Assembly: GCA_002780065.1 (NCBI GenBank)
Contig: PEWQ01000104.1
Coordinates: 1 to 6,089, forward strand
Length of the DNA stretch: 6,089 nucleotides
Direction: 5' to 3'
DNA from: Candidatus Hydrogenedentes bacterium CG07_land_8_20_14_0_80_42_17
Lineage (GTDB): Bacteria; UBA8481
Positions within the stretch are counted from its first letter, which is position 1, and each line of letters opens with the position of its first letter. The notes under the pieces were generated by a model, which was given only the letters and a program-made list of their open reading frames with translations, was not told the origin of the DNA and ran no database searches. Positions 1 to 6,089 of this stretch are shown here, piece after piece. The translations under genes and the position numbers were made by a program.

Positions 1-402
1 AGTCATAATCTGGGAACCTGTTTTTATCTCTGCATTCGTTTTTAAATCGGACCATCCGGCTAAATCGCTGCTCTTAAATCTGATTGCTCCGGCAATTTTC
101 CGCAATGATGGAACGCCCTGTAGATGCATAATTGAAGCGCTGCTTGAGGATGTGGAGAAAACTGATGAAGTGCCTTCAGCATCAGGAATTATCAGAGACT
201 GCCCTTCTTTCAATCGCCTTGGATCGGATATGCCGTTCAGATCGGCAAGCTCTTGCCAGCGGTTAATGTCTCCTAGCTCCCGCACCGCAATAATAGACAA
301 TGATTCGCCGCGCTTGACCGTTATCTCTTTGGCGATTGCGCCGCCTGCTAAAGCGAATACAAAAGCAAAAATTGAAAAACTGTAGATTAATTTTTTTGTC
401 AT
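1..402 (-). CDS. LysM-FecR domain secreted protein, 5' part (runs off left edge)
   Basis: This is an open reading frame of 134 codons without a stop, continuing past the left edge. Residues 1-24 form a signal peptide: a basic start (MTKK), a hydrophobic core rich in F, A and L, and an AIA-K cleavage-like site. Residues about 26-73 are a LysM peptidoglycan-binding domain (VKRGESLSIIA, then RWQELADLNG, then LKEGQSLIIPD). A Ser/Thr-rich linker follows (about 75-92). Residues from about 98 read VPSLRKIAG...GWSDLKTNAEIKTGSQI, which resembles the opening of a FecR domain (GxWxxL...G..I.TG). I infer an exported or periplasmic protein that binds the cell wall; its exact function is not known. ATG 402 was chosen over ATG 408 because a GAG lies 6 nt before 402 but directly abuts 408. 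It begins 28 bp after trpG on the same strand, so it is probably cotranscribed. Confidence 0.85.
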   Translation of the reverse strand, partial: MTKKLIYSFSIFAFVFALAGGAIAKEITVKRGESLSIIAVRELGDINRWQELADLNGISDPRRLKEGQSLIIPDAEGTSSVFSTSSSSASIMHLQGVPSLRKIAGAIRFKSSDLAGWSDLKTNAEIKTGSQIMT

Positions 403-430
403 AATCATCTCGATAAAAGTCTATATCCAA

Positions 431-1048
431 TCACGGCAAGATGTCCAAAAAATTCTGCAATATTTTATGACCTGATTTTGTGAGAATTGATTCCGGATGA
501 AACTGAACTCCTTCGGTCAAATGAGTTATGTGCCTTATGCCCATAGGAGGCTCAGAATTTTCAGCGCCTTCGACTCGAGAGTCATTGACTCGATAGTCAT
601 CGACTCTAGCGGTGACGACTAAACAATTCGGCAGACTCTTTTCCTCTACGCAGAGCGAATGATAACGAGTTGCCGTAAATGGGTTCGGAAGCCCTTTGAA
701 GATACTTTTGCCGTCATGCGCGATATTCGAGGTTTTACCATGCATAATTTTCGGAGCTCGGATAATTTTTGCGCCGAAGGCCGCACCGATGGCTTGATGC
801 CCGAGACATACTCCGAGAATTGGAATTTTACCCGACCACATCTTTATAAGCTCGACAGAAACTCCTGCCTCGCTTGGAGTGCAAGGGCCGGGTGAAATAA
901 TTATCCCGTTTACATTCAATGAGGAAACTTCGCCGGACGTGATGCTGTCATTTCTCTTTACAATTAATTCCGCTCCGAGTTCGCCAAGATATTGCACAAG
1001 GTTGTACGTGAACGAATCGTAGTTGTCTATTACAAGTAATCGTTTCAT
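431..1048 (-). CDS. trpG: Anthranilate synthase glutamine amidotransferase subunit (TrpG)
   Basis: Class I glutamine amidotransferase of 205 residues. It supplies ammonia from glutamine to TrpE for anthranilate synthesis in the cytoplasm. The start reads MKRLLVIDNYDSFTYNLVQY, typical of TrpG/PabA. The oxyanion region is SPGPCTP (52-58). The nucleophile Cys81 lies in GVCLGHQAIG, RYHSL is at 128-132, and His184 and Glu186 of the triad lie in GVQFHPESILT. ATG 1048 was preferred to an upstream in-frame ATG at 1066 because the family begins here, an AGAGG sits 7 nt upstream, and its ATGA overlaps the trpE stop by 4 nt, implying translational coupling. Oddity: residues about 148-162 are a repeated pentapeptide (RVDDY RVNDS RVEGA) encoded by a 15-bp tandem repeat, lengthening a normally short loop before MGIRH by about 14 residues. 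In many bacteria TrpG also serves PabB (folate), so a dual role is possible. Confidence 0.95.
   Translation of the reverse strand: MKRLLVIDNYDSFTYNLVQYLGELGAELIVKRNDSITSGEVSSLNVNGIIISPGPCTPSEAGVSVELIKMWSGKIPILGVCLGHQAIGAAFGAKIIRAPKIMHGKTSNIAHDGKSIFKGLPNPFTATRYHSLCVEEKSLPNCLVVTARVDDYRVNDSRVEGAENSEPPMGIRHITHLTEGVQFHPESILTKSGHKILQNFLDILP
572..616. repeat. 15-bp tandem repeat inside trpG (three copies)
   Basis: Three 15-bp units begin at 572, 587 and 602 on the plus strand, each starting GACTC. The first two read GACTCGAGAGTCATT and GACTCGATAGTCATC; the third (GACTCTAGCGGTGAC) has diverged. Each of the first two units holds a short inverted repeat (GACT..AGTC). Because the period is a multiple of three, trpG stays open and the repeat is read as RVDDY, RVNDS, RVEGA on the minus strand. 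Four GANTC sites fall within 35 bp. Confidence 0.85.
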
Positions 1049-2523
1049 AAACCAGCCTCTGCCCAATCCAGAGCCTTTATCATGGCACGAGCTTTATTCA
1101 TTGTCTCTTCATATTCGAGTTCAGGAACTGAATCGTGAACGATGCCGGCTCCAACTTGAACATACGCCTTTCCGTCGCAAACTAAAATCGTTCTCAATAT
1201 GATAGCTGTATCTGCGTTTCCCTCGAACCCGATGTATCCGGCGGCTCCTGCGTAAGGCCCGCGGCCGGTCGGTTCGAGTTCGCGGATTATTTCCATCGCG
1301 CGAATTTTCGGAGCGCCGGAGACTGTGCCGGCCGGAAATGCTGATCTGATTACATCGAAGGCATTTTGATTTTTACTTAGTTCTCCCGTGACATTGGAGA
1401 CGATATGCATTACGTGACTGTATCTCTCGATGACCATCAGTTCGTCCACATGCACACTCCCGTGCTCAGATACCCTTCCGACATCGTTGCGCCCAAGATC
1501 CACAAGCATGATATGTTCGGCGCACTCTTTCTCATCTTTCAAAAGTTCTTGTTCAAGGGCAAGATCTTTTTCAGCAGTATTTCCTCTAGGCCGCGTGCCT
1601 GCGATTGGCCTCAAGGTTATCTTTTTATTTTCGATTCGCACCATGACTTCTGGAGAAGAGCCGACCAGAGCAAAGGATTTGAATGAGCCGTGCGGAGGAA
1701 ATTTCAAATAGAACATATACGGAGAAGGGTTGATTGCTCGCAATGTTCTGTAAATCTCGAACGGCGTAGCGGTAGAATTGCGTTCGAGTCTTTGCGACAA
1801 TACAACTTGAAAAATATCTCCGGCGAGAATGTATTCTTTTGCCTGCTTTACTGCAGATATAAAATCTTCACGTTCAAAACTGCTTTTGATCGGAGACGCT
1901 TGAGATTCTGACGGAGGCGAAGCGGAACCAGGTACAGGAAAATTTTTTGGATACGAAAGTTTCTTCAATAAATCACTCAATTCTTCTTTGGCTTTGTTGT
2001 ATGAAGTTTCGGGATCACCATTAACTTTTGCATTGGATATGAGAATTAATCTTCTCTTTATCGAATCGAATACAAGAAGTTTTCCTGCGACGATGAATGC
2101 GGCATCGGGAAGAGGAAGTGAAGGCTTCGGAAATTTTTTGTAAGTCTTGCCGACTTTTGGCTCGAAATACGAGATGCAGTCGTATCCGACGAATCCGACT
2201 GCTCCGCCGATGAACCGGGGCAGATCCGGATTTCTGTAAGGCTTCAACGCTGAAAAATAGTTTTCGATTTCGAGCAGAGGGTCTTTGCCTGAGGAGTAAA
2301 GAATTTTCCATGAGTCTAGTCCGATAAAAGAATATCGTCCCATCTTCTCACCGCCCTCTACCGATTCAAGAAGAAAACCCGGTTCGTCTCCGACTATGTT
2401 GACGTAAGCTGAGATCGGTGTGAGCGTGTCGGCGAGCACCTCGGTGTAAACCGGAATGAGATTGTAATTCTTTGATAAAGATTTAAATTCGTCGAGACTT
2501 GGTTCAAATTTAATTTTAGTCAT
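1045..2523 (-). CDS. trpE: Anthranilate synthase component I (TrpE)
   Basis: Chorismate-utilising subunit of 492 residues that makes anthranilate from chorismate and TrpG-derived ammonia, the committed step of tryptophan synthesis. The N-terminal domain carries LLES (51-54) followed by RYSFIG (63-68), the known site of tryptophan feedback inhibition, so the enzyme is probably allosterically regulated. The catalytic domain (about 216-490) has LRPIAGTRPRG (304-314), DLGRND (342-347), RYSHVMH (367-373), PAGTVSGAPK (397-406) and PELEYEET (467-474). The Ala in PIAGT, where aminodeoxychorismate synthase PabB has Lys (PIKGT), supports TrpE over PabB. The two domains are joined by a Pro/Ser-rich linker (about 194-216). 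ATG 2523 was chosen over in-frame ATG 2583 because homology starts near there and it overlaps the hisIE stop by 8 bp. No good Shine-Dalgarno precedes it, so translation probably depends on coupling to the gene upstream. Confidence 0.96.
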   Translation of the reverse strand: MTKIKFEPSLDEFKSLSKNYNLIPVYTEVLADTLTPISAYVNIVGDEPGFLLESVEGGEKMGRYSFIGLDSWKILYSSGKDPLLEIENYFSALKPYRNPDLPRFIGGAVGFVGYDCISYFEPKVGKTYKKFPKPSLPLPDAAFIVAGKLLVFDSIKRRLILISNAKVNGDPETSYNKAKEELSDLLKKLSYPKNFPVPGSASPPSESQASPIKSSFEREDFISAVKQAKEYILAGDIFQVVLSQRLERNSTATPFEIYRTLRAINPSPYMFYLKFPPHGSFKSFALVGSSPEVMVRIENKKITLRPIAGTRPRGNTAEKDLALEQELLKDEKECAEHIMLVDLGRNDVGRVSEHGSVHVDELMVIERYSHVMHIVSNVTGELSKNQNAFDVIRSAFPAGTVSGAPKIRAMEIIRELEPTGRGPYAGAAGYIGFEGNADTAIILRTILVCDGKAYVQVGAGIVHDSVPELEYEETMNKARAMIKALDWAEAGL

Positions 2524-3145
2524 TGACGGGTGGAGGAGCATTTCTGCGCTTGCCTCTTCGCTTTTGCAGTTCCAATAAAACATCGGACAGCTCGATGCCG
2601 TGACGCAATAGAAGAAGCATTGAATGAAAGAGGAGATCTGCGACTTCTTCAGCTAAATTGACGACGTCCCAGTGTTTGGATGCCTCGACAACCTCGAGAG
2701 ATTCTTCGATAATCTTCTCTCGAATTTTTTCAGGATTCCCTTTCAAGAGTTTTGCAGTGTAGGAATGCGGGTCTTTTGAGTCCATTCTGCCTTTTAGAAC
2801 AGTCTCTATCTCATCGAGCAGCAACGGCCCGGGACGATTGCATTCGCCGAACAGCGAATGAGTAAAGAATGTTGGATTTTCAGTTCCGTTTACCGGAGCA
2901 TTTACTTTACAGAGATATAAAAGTGCTTTCCCGTCTTTCGAGGCTTTAATCTCTTCGACCTCAAGCTCTTTTTTTTCTATGAGAGCATTATTCTCGCCGA
3001 TGAGACATACATGCTTTCGCTTTTTAGTTTCGAGCAGAGCTTTTTCGTCAGTATATGCGTGCAGAATCACAGCGCCATGTGGCGACTGCTGGAGTATAAC
3101 CGGTATTAGCTCTCCAACCCCGAATTTTAATTCTATAGTTGACAT
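2516..3145 (-). CDS. hisIE: HisIE-like protein: intact HisE domain, degenerate HisI domain
   Basis: Protein of 209 residues with the two-domain layout of bifunctional HisIE (histidine synthesis, steps 2 and 3). The HisE half (about 108-196) is well kept: LDEIETVLKGR, DPHSYTAKLL, the acidic motif E147-E148-x-x-E151 and E167-x-x-D170, the usual Mg-binding set of phosphoribosyl-ATP pyrophosphohydrolase. The HisI half (about 9-100) keeps the fold signature (GELIPVILQ...GAVILHAYTDEKALLET) but not the catalytic residues. The DCDxD motif is replaced by SKDGK (69-73), GETSGN is absent, and the CHxGxxxC segment is replaced by PTFFTHSLFG (91-100). None of the three zinc cysteines aligns. I infer an active pyrophosphohydrolase with an inactive or repurposed cyclohydrolase domain. 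It is first in an overlapping set with trpE and trpG. The start at 3145 fits the family; an in-frame ATG at 3205 would add 20 residues that begin in a repeat array. No Shine-Dalgarno is visible. Confidence 0.85.
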   Translation of the reverse strand: MSTIELKFGVGELIPVILQQSPHGAVILHAYTDEKALLETKKRKHVCLIGENNALIEKKELEVEEIKASKDGKALLYLCKVNAPVNGTENPTFFTHSLFGECNRPGPLLLDEIETVLKGRMDSKDPHSYTAKLLKGNPEKIREKIIEESLEVVEASKHWDVVNLAEEVADLLFHSMLLLLRHGIELSDVLLELQKRRGKRRNAPPPVND

Positions 3146-3151
3146 AATAGA

Positions 3152-3180
3152 ATCGTATGATTGAAATTTGCCGGCGTCAA
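3152..3180 (-). promoter_or_regulatory. Candidate sigma-70-type promoter for hisIE-trpEG
   Basis: On the minus strand, TTGACG (3180-3175) is followed after exactly 17 nt by TACGAT (3157-3152), matching the -35 and -10 consensus at 5 and 4 of 6 positions. Only 6 nt separate the -10 box from ATG 3145. Transcription would then start at or next to the start codon, giving a leaderless message, which agrees with the missing Shine-Dalgarno. The -35 box overlaps the truncated last unit of the adjacent 17-bp array. This is a prediction from sequence only. Confidence 0.45.
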
Positions 3181-3271
3181 GAATCCATTGATTCAAAGAA
3201 TCCATTGATTCAAGGAATCCATTGATTCAAGGAATCCATTGATTCAAGGAATCCATTGATTCAAGGAATCC
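3177..3271. repeat. 17-bp tandem repeat array in divergent intergenic region
   Basis: On the minus strand the unit is GGATTCCTTGAATCAAT. There are four identical copies, a fifth with one change (CCTTG to CTTTG), and a partial sixth (GGATTCTTGA), in all 95 bp. Each unit contains the inverted repeat GATTC-3 nt-GAATC, and neighbouring units form GAATC-4 nt-GATTC, so every half-unit is a GANTC site (eleven in 95 bp). There are no unique spacers, so it is not a CRISPR array. It lies between the divergently transcribed hisIE and nfu genes, with a candidate promoter at each edge. It could be an operator array, a methylation cluster or a neutral repeat with variable copy number. Confidence 0.92.
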
Positions 3272-3300
3272 TTGATTTTAAATTCCAAGAGAGAGACAAT
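3272..3300 (+). promoter_or_regulatory. Candidate promoter for nfu-panE-regulator operon
   Basis: TTGATT (3272-3277) and GACAAT (3295-3300) are separated by 17 nt, each matching 4 of 6 consensus bases. This would leave an untranslated leader of about 27 nt containing the nfu ribosome binding site. The -35 box directly abuts the end of the 17-bp array, whose units also contain TTGATT. The match is modest, and the call rests mainly on its placement. Confidence 0.3.
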
Positions 3301-3321
3301 AAAGTAAAAATTAACTAAATT

Positions 3322-3327
3322 GAGGAG
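3322..3327 (+). promoter_or_regulatory. Ribosome binding site of nfu
   Basis: GAGGAG lies 6 nt before ATG 3334, a strong Shine-Dalgarno match that fixes the nfu start. It contrasts with hisIE and trpE on the other strand, which lack such a site. Confidence 0.85.
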
Positions 3328-3333
3328 AAACAA

Positions 3334-3861
3334 ATGAAGATAATTTCATCTGAACAGACCCCAAATCCTAATGCCATAAAGTTTATTCTTGATGGAAAAA
3401 TTTTAGATGATGGTTCCAGACAGTTTGATTCTGCTTCGAAAGTTGGAGAGGATTTAATAGCCTTGGCGCTTTTTAAAGTCAAGTCGGTTAAATCAGTTTA
3501 TTACCGCGATGATTTTATTACTGTCGAAAATAAGGATCCGCTTGAATGGGATCGCATTAGAACAGTCATAGAAAAAACTGTTGAAGAATTGGAATCAGTT
3601 AAATCAGGTTCAGATAAATCTAAAAAATCAGACAATAAACTTTTGCTTCGAATCGAGTCATTACTCGATGAACGGGTTCGGCCATTTCTTGCAAACGACG
3701 GAGGCGGCTTGGATGTTTTGGGACTCGATGGAAAAAATCTCATGATACGCTATGAAGGCGCCTGTGGAGGCTGTCCTCATGCAATAATGGGTACTTTGCA
3801 TTCAATACAGAATTTGTTGAGAGAAGAGATCGATTCTGAACTGAATGTGATTCCGGCATAG
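3334..3861 (+). CDS. nfu: Nfu-type iron-sulfur cluster scaffold/carrier protein
   Basis: Protein of 175 residues with two domains. Residues 1-about 88 match the N-terminal Nfu domain (opening EQTPNPNAIKFILDG; then VKSVYYRDDFITVEN), found in Nfu proteins of mitochondria and many bacteria. A Lys/Ser/Asp-rich linker follows (about 89-102). Residues about 104-175 are the NifU C-terminal domain, with RPFLANDGGGLDVLG and the cluster-binding motif C144-G-G-C147-P. The family binds a transient 4Fe-4S (or 2Fe-2S) cluster through the CxxC of a dimer and hands it to apoproteins in the cytoplasm. No other isc/suf gene is in view, so this looks like a stand-alone carrier. It is the first gene of the rightward set; panE begins 13 bp after its stop. 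It differs from full NifU of nitrogen fixers, which has IscU-like and ferredoxin-like domains. Confidence 0.93.
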   Translation: MKIISSEQTPNPNAIKFILDGKILDDGSRQFDSASKVGEDLIALALFKVKSVKSVYYRDDFITVENKDPLEWDRIRTVIEKTVEELESVKSGSDKSKKSDNKLLLRIESLLDERVRPFLANDGGGLDVLGLDGKNLMIRYEGACGGCPHAIMGTLHSIQNLLREEIDSELNVIPA

Positions 3862-3862
3862 C

Positions 3863-3867
3863 GGGGA
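3863..3867 (+). promoter_or_regulatory. Ribosome binding site supporting the TTG start of panE
   Basis: GGGGA followed by AAG sits 7 nt before TTG 3875. No in-frame ATG or GTG occurs between the nfu stop and the Rossmann motif. A nearby GTG (3870) is in another frame and hits a stop after six codons. This decides the TTG start. Confidence 0.6.
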
Positions 3868-3874
3868 AAGTGAA

Positions 3875-4813
3875 TTGCATTTTGCTGTAATCGGAGCAGG
3901 AGCTGTCGGGGGATATTACGGCGGCAGACTTGCTTCTCATGGCAATGAGGTGCATTTTCTTTACCGCTCTGAGTATGATTATGTGAAGAAAAATGGAGTC
4001 GAAGTCAGAAGTTGCCATGGCGACTTTAAATTTCGGCCGCTCGCTTACAAATCAGTATTTGAAATGCCGCGAGTGGATGTTGTAATTGTTGCTTTAAAAA
4101 GTTTTCATACAAAATATTTAACTGAACTTTTACCGCCAATAATTAATTCTGAGACATTAATTCTTGATATTCAAAATGGATTAGGCAATGAAGATTTTAT
4201 TGCTGAGCATTTTGGAGGCGACAGAATTATTGCCGGCTCTGCGTTCATCTGTTCTGAACGAATAGCTCCAGGAGTGATTTCTCACACTGCGGAAGGCACT
4301 TTGAAAATTGGCTGGTATAAACCTGAAGGAAAAGACAATTCGATATTGGAGAAAGTTGCATCTATTTTTAAAAATTGCGGTGTAAACGCGCTTGTAAATC
4401 CTCGCGGCATCGAGATTAAGTGGGCAAAACTTATCTGGAATGTCGCTTTCAACGGGCTTTCGGTTTATTATGGAGGAATAACGACGGCCGATATTCTTGC
4501 CGATTCTGAAAAGACGAAATTCGCCGAAAGACTAATGAGCGAGGTGATAGAATCTGCAGAATCGGACGGAGTAAAATTGGATTCGCAATTAATAGAAAAG
4601 AATTTTTCTGTGACGCGGAGCATGAACGCATACAGAACTTCGATGACGGTTGATTTTTTGAAGGGGAGAGAATTGGAGATATCTGCTATGCTTGCTGAGC
4701 CTTTTAGGAGGGGAACTTCAGCAGGAAAGAATTTGCCGAATATGAGGGAACTGATTAGAGGCGTTCGAGCTAGAGTTGAAGAACGAAACCTGAAATTGAA
4801 AGGGGAGGAGTAA
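3875..4813 (+). CDS. panE: 2-dehydropantoate 2-reductase (ketopantoate reductase)
   Basis: Protein of 312 residues that reduces ketopantoate to pantoate with NADPH, on the route to pantothenate and coenzyme A. The N-terminal Rossmann domain begins at once: HFAVIGAGAVGGYYGGRLA, with GxGxxG at 7-12. VALKSFHT (72-79) and QNGLGNED (100-107) follow, both family hallmarks. The C-terminal helical domain holds the catalytic lysine region IKWAKLIWNVAFN, with Lys185, Asn189 and Asn193, and SMTVDFLKGRELEI (256-269), where Glu268 matches the substrate-binding glutamate of E. coli PanE. Where E. coli has TEID this protein has LEIS, a minor departure. The start is TTG. The end overlaps the ribosome binding site of the following regulator gene. 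PanE-like reductases sometimes act on other 2-keto acids, so the substrate is inferred from family membership; panB and panC are not in the window. Confidence 0.88.
   Translation: MHFAVIGAGAVGGYYGGRLASHGNEVHFLYRSEYDYVKKNGVEVRSCHGDFKFRPLAYKSVFEMPRVDVVIVALKSFHTKYLTELLPPIINSETLILDIQNGLGNEDFIAEHFGGDRIIAGSAFICSERIAPGVISHTAEGTLKIGWYKPEGKDNSILEKVASIFKNCGVNALVNPRGIEIKWAKLIWNVAFNGLSVYYGGITTADILADSEKTKFAERLMSEVIESAESDGVKLDSQLIEKNFSVTRSMNAYRTSMTVDFLKGRELEISAMLAEPFRRGTSAGKNLPNMRELIRGVRARVEERNLKLKGEE
4801..4810 (+). promoter_or_regulatory. Ribosome binding site of the response regulator gene
   Basis: AGGGGAGGAG lies inside the last codons of panE and ends 5 nt before ATG 4816. The panE stop (4811-4813) and the next start are 2 bp apart, so translation of the two is probably coupled. 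Confidence 0.8.
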
Positions 4814-4815
4814 TC

Positions 4816-5988
4816 ATGAACGAAAAAAATCAAATTGTTGTTGTAGATGATGATTCCCTTCAGCTCAAGTGGCTAAGTAAAATGTTGAAGGTTGGAGGAC
4901 ATACTGTCAGAGAATTCGAAAGCGGAAAAGAAGCGCTTGAATCGTTGACAAAAGATACTCCCCAAATTTTAATATGCGATATTGTTTTGAGAGATATCGA
5001 CGGAATCAGTATTTTATCTGAAGTAAGAAAAAAATTTCCTCAACTGAAAGTGATTATGATTACCGGCGCTCCTGAATTTGAGCTGGCAGTTAAGTCATTG
5101 AGACTCGGAGCGTTCGATTACATAACAAAACCGATCGATCCTGAACTTATGTTTGAGACAATCGATCGCGCAGTTAGAACTTACGAATTGGAAGAAGAAA
5201 ATGCGAAACAGCTCGAAGAGCTTGAAAAACGCGACGAGAGGCTTCGGCAGGAGCTTCAGCTTGCAAAGGTAATAATCAGCGACATATTGCCTTCAAAATA
5301 TCCACGTACGAATAAATTGAAATTCGGAACAGTTTATATGCCTGCAGGCGAGATTGGAGGAGACTATTACGACTTCATTCAGTTTCGAGAACCGAATCGT
5401 GTTGGAATAGTTGTCGGAGATATAACTGGAAAGGGAGTCCCTGCGGCTCTGCTTATGACAATGTTTAAACTGCGCGCAAATGAAATTTTTCGTTCTGTAT
5501 TTCATCCCGCAGAATGCATGTCTGTCTTGAATAAAACTCTTTCAAAAGATTTTCCTCAGGATAATTTTGTCAGCGCTTTCTATACGGTTATTGACTCTGA
5601 CAAAGGCGAATTGATTTATTCTAAGGCGTCTAATGATCCTGGCGTTATTTTGAGGCAGGGAAAGACTCCGATTCTTTTGGATCGCGGAAGCGGTTATGCG
5701 CTGGCCGCATTTGATCCGGAAACTTTTGGCGAGTCTGCTTACACTCAGCATTCAGTTAAACTCGAGCACGGAGACATATTGGTATTGTTTACGGATGGAC
5801 TCATAGAAATTTTTGACAAAAACAATCGTCAACTGAAATTGGATGGATTATTGGAGTGGCTTAAAGAAGACGAACACCTTCAGCCTCAGCTTCTTGCGGA
5901 ACAGATTGTAAAACGAGCTCAAGAATTTGCCGGAACTGAAAAACTTCAGGATGATGTGACTTTAGTTGCAGTTCGTTATGATGGCTGA
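4816..5988 (+). CDS. Response regulator with receiver and SpoIIE/RsbU-type PP2C phosphatase domains
   Basis: Protein of 390 residues. The receiver domain (about 5-120) has the acidic pair D11-D12, the phosphoacceptor D55 in LICDIVL, T83 and K105 in YITKPIDPE, so it should accept a phosphate from a histidine kinase. A charged helical linker (about 122-150, ELEEENAKQLEELEKRDERL) looks like a coiled coil. The PP2C domain follows (about 165-388): MPAGEIGGDYYDF with D183, GDITGKGVPAALLM with D202, LFTDGLIE with D327, and LQDDVTLVAVRY with D379/D380, the expected Mn/Mg-binding aspartates of a SpoIIE-type serine phosphatase. Such proteins usually dephosphorylate a STAS anti-anti-sigma factor in partner switching, which would tie a two-component input to sigma-factor or similar control. 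No kinase, STAS protein or anti-sigma gene lies in the window, so the partner is unknown. It sits 2 bp after panE. Confidence 0.93.
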   Translation: MNEKNQIVVVDDDSLQLKWLSKMLKVGGHTVREFESGKEALESLTKDTPQILICDIVLRDIDGISILSEVRKKFPQLKVIMITGAPEFELAVKSLRLGAFDYITKPIDPELMFETIDRAVRTYELEEENAKQLEELEKRDERLRQELQLAKVIISDILPSKYPRTNKLKFGTVYMPAGEIGGDYYDFIQFREPNRVGIVVGDITGKGVPAALLMTMFKLRANEIFRSVFHPAECMSVLNKTLSKDFPQDNFVSAFYTVIDSDKGELIYSKASNDPGVILRQGKTPILLDRGSGYALAAFDPETFGESAYTQHSVKLEHGDILVLFTDGLIEIFDKNNRQLKLDGLLEWLKEDEHLQPQLLAEQIVKRAQEFAGTEKLQDDVTLVAVRYDG

Positions 5989-6011
5989 GGGTGTAGATGG
6001 GATCATTCTTG

Positions 6012-6067
6012 AAAATTGCAAATTGAAAAGTGGAAATTGCAAATTGAAAAGTGCAAATTGAAAATTT
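6012..6067. repeat. Heptanucleotide tandem repeat, eight units
   Basis: Eight consecutive 7-bp units follow the regulator gene: AAAATTG, CAAATTG, AAAAGTG, GAAATTG, CAAATTG, AAAAGTG, CAAATTG, AAAATTT, with consensus near NAAATTG. A 21-bp higher-order period (three heptamers) is visible for the first six units. The flanking sequence to the window end is also AT-rich and reads as a loose reverse complement (CCAATTTTCATTTTC). The 5989-6089 stretch holds no gene that I can support. Confidence 0.8.
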
Positions 6068-6089
6068 TATTTTTCCAATTTTCATTTTC

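Follow-up and report, generated by a model that had tools for sequence, protein, structure and literature searches.

The window examined here, a 6,089-nucleotide stretch of Candidatus Hydrogenedentes bacterium CG07_land_8_20_14_0_80_42_17 (contig PEWQ01000104.1, positions 1 to 6,089), encodes a 209-residue protein in which a HisI domain stripped of its catalytic motifs is fused to an intact HisE domain. Judging from its sequence, it most likely has a single function, that of HisE. We think it probable that an ancestral HisIE lost its HisI function once a separate hisI covered step 3 of histidine synthesis, leaving a fused protein that serves as HisE and has kept the fold of its emptied half.

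Motif loss in the HisI half and conservation of the HisE half

The hisIE-type gene lies on the minus strand at 2516..3145, with a reading frame open from the ATG at 3145 to the stop at 2516-2518. Its product places HisI N-terminal to HisE and is homologous end to end with HisIE; residues 1-104 form the pseudo-HisI (PRA-CH-like) domain (2834..3145, minus strand) and residues 105-209 the HisE (PRA-PH) domain (2519..2833, minus strand). All sites named below within the gene lie on the same strand. Motifs were compared in an alignment of 34 rows, 31 of them intact, using the metal and base ligands assigned in Medicago HISN2 (MtHISN2 numbering; PMC8102479).

Only 8 of the 28 near-invariant HisI columns are kept in the pseudo-HisI, and these are mostly structural. 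The zinc cysteines Cys126, Cys142 and Cys149 have become K70, N86 and F93, the general-base His143 has become G87, and the magnesium aspartates 125, 127 and 129 read S69, D71 and K73, so that two of the three are lost; each of these metal and base positions, the kept D71 included, is invariant across all 31 comparison rows. The DCDxD metal motif is thereby SKDGK (residues 69-73, 2927..2941) and the CHTGxxSC zinc/base motif NGTENPTF (residues 86-93, 2867..2890). At the phosphate-binding SRS motif GEN is found (residues 50-52, 2990..2998), Trp107 is replaced by Glu, and a 6-residue deletion between E60 and L61 (2963..2968) has removed the GETSGN loop, so that E111-T112-S113 and N115 of MtHISN2 are missing. 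The catalytic and metal residues that remain are Lys109 (K59) and Asp127 (D71). An earlier note on this DNA had read the HisI half as aligning end to end with the cyclohydrolase while DCDxD had turned into SKDGK, GETSGN had gone and the CHxGxxxC segment held no cysteine, and the 34-row alignment bears this out in each respect. Of the readings it offered for the half, inactivity is well supported by the motif loss, and cyclohydrolase activity has in all likelihood disappeared.

The half is nevertheless a true, if strongly eroded, HisI homologue, as it aligns with intact HisI over its entire length and scores 24.9 bits against an intact-HisIE profile, compared with a maximum of 5.6 bits for 2000 shuffled versions; the HisI half of the sister genome described below scores 206 bits. 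A PF01502 (PRA-CH) search of the window protein gave no match at E<=1 (the Pfam cut-off is 27 bits), a search of the pseudo-HisI against PDB sequences returned chance matches only, and the NF002747 HisIE equivalog score was 103.5 bits, under the cut-off of 187.

Two readings would explain the motif loss away. According to one, the half is still a cyclohydrolase whose metal ligands have moved to other positions, for which the three remaining cysteines, C47, C79 and C102, would be the candidates. None of them stands at an aligned ligand position; the model puts C47 and C79 in strands and assigns C102 to the linker, outside the metal loops, and we rejected the reading on this ground. The general-base His and the phosphate sites are also gone, and a separate intact HisI in the genome makes a cyclohydrolase half unnecessary, all of which renders shifted ligands very improbable. 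The other reading, an assembly error or frameshift, comes to mind because the source is a metagenome assembly. It was ruled out by the other two frames, which are full of stops and contain none of the lost motifs. Moreover, the GC content by codon position is coding-like and the loss is spread across the whole HisI half, so that the chance of an artefact is negligible.

The HisE half presents the opposite picture. It scores 62.8 bits with PF01503 (cut-off 21.3) and 77.5 bits with TIGR03188 of NCBIfam (cut-off 42.7), and 15 of its 16 near-invariant columns are kept. The alignment confirms that it retains its acidic ligands, as had been claimed before: E147, E148 and E151 of the EExxE motif (2693..2707) as well as E167 and D170 of the ExxD motif (2636..2647) are all present. 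That this half is active is likewise well supported by its sequence. In Acinetobacter baumannii, the HisE domain is active without its HisI half (PMC10242683).

The two halves also differ in their rates of evolution. The window protein and its sister homologue are 27% identical in the HisI half but 53% in the HisE half; pairs of intact HisIE average 54.6% in HisI and 39.8% in HisE, with HisI the higher in 95% of 76 pairs. In the HisI tree the window branch measures about 7.5-7.9 changes per column versus 0.71 for the sister, while in HisE it is ordinary (0.55 changes per column) and groups with the sister.

A separate hisI and the sister locus

The earlier note had proposed searching the genome for a further hisI with its motif intact, and one was found. 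This gene stands alone on another contig (C133), where it immediately precedes a long-form hisG, and encodes an intact HisI of 130 residues. It is the one further HisI over the cut-off in the genome, and the search that detected it did not find the pseudo-HisI itself. For HisE, the fused protein of the window is the only match over the cut-off; the next PF01503 match reaches 20.4 bits and stays below it. A short-form hisG followed by hisD, the latter named by eye from its open reading frame, occupies a further contig (C132) in an arrangement common to the sister genome. The genome thus combines a resident short hisG-hisD with an extra pair of hisI and long hisG; the two hisG types were located at L070:4049-5315 and L067:1345-3263. 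The tree separates the stand-alone HisI from the sister HisIE and gives it a long branch, with weak support for this placement.

As hisI and the fused gene lie on separate contigs, misbinning has to be considered. The tetranucleotide composition of the hisI contig correlates with that of the window at r=0.90, compared with -0.02 to 0.66 for contigs of other lineages, which makes a contaminant, and hence misbinning, unlikely. Bacillus subtilis has both HisI and HisG; searches of the copy of its genome used as a control, which may be incomplete, found neither HisG nor, at E<=0.01, HisI.

For comparison, we used one other species of the phylum, a MAG labelled Candidatus Hydrogenedentota J006 (contig RFFU01000145.1). 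Its HisIE is intact with every motif present, is the only HisI of that genome, and directly abuts trpE in the hisIE-trpE order seen in the window. An intact fusion at a hisIE-trpE locus is therefore the likely ancestral state. In the other loci compared, no trpE was found near HisIE. In the window, trpE (1045..2523, minus strand; PF00425/PF04715) overlaps the hisIE stop by 8 nt, ATGACTAA, and trpG (431..1048, minus strand; PF00117) overlaps the trpE stop by 4 nt; a gene for nfu is oriented divergently from hisIE-trpE-trpG. These overlaps are consistent with coupled translation and, together with the order in the sister genome, support the membership in a trp operon that had been suggested earlier.

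The separate intact HisI in the genome, together with the intact HisIE on which the sister relies as its sole HisI, marks the HisI half of the window protein as a lineage-specific pseudo-domain, most likely made redundant by the stand-alone hisI. The path we propose would start from a normal bifunctional HisIE ahead of trpE. Once the stand-alone hisI beside the long-form hisG had taken over the third step of histidine synthesis, the fusion could have lost the zinc, magnesium and substrate sites of its HisI half, and the HisE half would have stayed essential as the only HisE of the genome. The fused protein would now hydrolyse PR-ATP to PR-AMP and the separate HisI would handle PR-AMP, the dead half retaining the PRA-CH fold most likely for folding, solubility or dimerisation of the fused protein. 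This order of events is drawn from one genome, a MAG of 86.9% completeness without a close relative.

Fold and possible role of the emptied half

An AlphaFold2 model computed from the 34-row alignment reaches a pLDDT of 91.5, a confidence that leans on the intact homologues, and from two sequences the value is 50. The model superimposes on HisIE 6j22 over 189 residues (Z 17.7, rmsd 3.0) and on HisI 1zps_A over 105 residues (Z 13.4, rmsd 2.8), so the fold predicted for the HisI half is the PRA-CH beta-grasp. In the sequence itself, hydrophobic residues persist in 18 of the 20 core columns where intact HisI has them, and only 6 of 57 non-hydrophobic columns have turned hydrophobic. On both counts, the PRA-CH fold of the dead half seems to be kept.

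A different account would have the HisI half decaying without any role, its frame open only because HisE shares the same start, with eventual loss of the domain. Lost catalytic constraint would explain the long HisI branch, and HisE is active on its own in another species (PMC10242683); for the same reason a structural need for the HisI half is not obvious. The open frame is uninformative here, stops being excluded by the need for HisE, which is translated downstream in the same frame. In simulations of drift without the HisE constraint, about 97% of runs would have acquired a stop. The argument of the earlier note that an open frame speaks for a maintained function is consequently weak when taken alone, and the contrast between the hydrophobic core and the other columns is the better evidence for a kept fold. 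When 50% identity is retained, neutral drift purged of stops attains this contrast in 0.8% of runs (P 0.008); at either 40% or 30% it does so in 0 of 500. Besides this excess over drift, the confidently predicted fold also speaks against idle decay, and we give that account a minor chance. From this single sequence we infer that a structural role, in dimerisation or folding, is favoured over free decay.

Alternatively, the old HisI pocket might have become a regulatory site at which a ligand such as AMP, PR-AMP or some amino acid controls HisE. The apparently kept fold and the remaining equivalents of Lys109 and Asp127 would suit such a site, HisI is counted among an assemblage of beta-grasp domains that bind ligands (PMC1949818), and the trpE operon links two PRPP-consuming pathways. 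Yet both phosphate-binding regions (SRS and GETS) and Trp107 are lost, and there is no second member that could reveal conservation of a new site, which leaves regulation of this kind improbable. The more specific proposal, that the emptied HisI regulates HisE as a module responding to a new ligand and so couples step 2 of the histidine pathway with the tryptophan operon, is if anything more doubtful. Among the new roles put forward in the earlier note, the structural one thus gains from the hydrophobic-core contrast, and a sensor or an enzyme for another substrate found no positive support.

Relation to known proteins and flanking repeats

Fused hisI-hisE genes are well documented (PMC1963479). 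With bifunctional HisIE such as that of Shigella flexneri (6j22/6j2l) or plant HISN2 (7bgm/7bgn), the window protein shares domain order, length, predicted fold and the HisE ligands; it differs in that its HisI motifs are gone except for one Asp and one Lys, and in scoring below the NCBIfam cut-off for HisIE. With monofunctional HisE (PF01503/TIGR03188; 2a7w, 1yvw, 1y6x) it has in common a PR-ATP pyrophosphohydrolase domain that is intact and scores above the family cut-offs, but it carries an N-terminal pseudo-HisI of about 104 residues. Reduction of one half of a fused HisIE in a single lineage is also known from the minimised HisIE of Chlorobi/Rhodothermota (PMC8305728). In those proteins it is HisE that is shortened, next to a complete HisI, whereas in the window protein HisI is full-length and catalytically empty. 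Retention of a fold with loss of the catalytic motifs is typical of pseudoenzyme domains in general (PMC10211241).

In a limited survey of the literature, we found no published pseudo-HisI or HisIE with a dead HisI half. A single-protein search of genome contigs gave no match, and a search of genome contigs with a two-row alignment showed no degenerate HisI among the 27 loci inspected. With the intact-HisIE profile, no degenerate fused form appeared in 43 Armatimonadota genomes, and for 201 Chloroflexota genomes the matches listed include 63 of full length, in a list that leaves out weak HisE-only rows; as to rarity, these genome surveys are partial.

The protein would represent a natural case in which a bifunctional enzyme drops one of its activities after a separate gene has come to cover it, and the sister genome preserves the likely earlier state at the same locus. 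It would also illustrate how a fusion can return to a single function while the gene stays in one piece. Annotating the window protein by homology to the fusion would wrongly credit it with step 3 of histidine synthesis.

The window further contains several tandem repeats; an Rfam search of it gave no match. Between nfu and the hisIE start, at 3177-3277, about six copies of a 17-bp unit (TCAAGGAATCCATTGAT on the plus strand) occur with 96% identity, with no counterpart in loci from elsewhere. This repeat carries alternative in-frame start codons that would extend the pseudo-HisIE protein, among them an ATG at 3205 upstream of the hisIE start. Inside trpG, 2.5 copies of a 15-bp unit (570-606) add a short repetitive peptide insert, and a 21-bp/7-bp tandem repeat follows the response regulator-SpoIIE phosphatase gene at 6009-6066.
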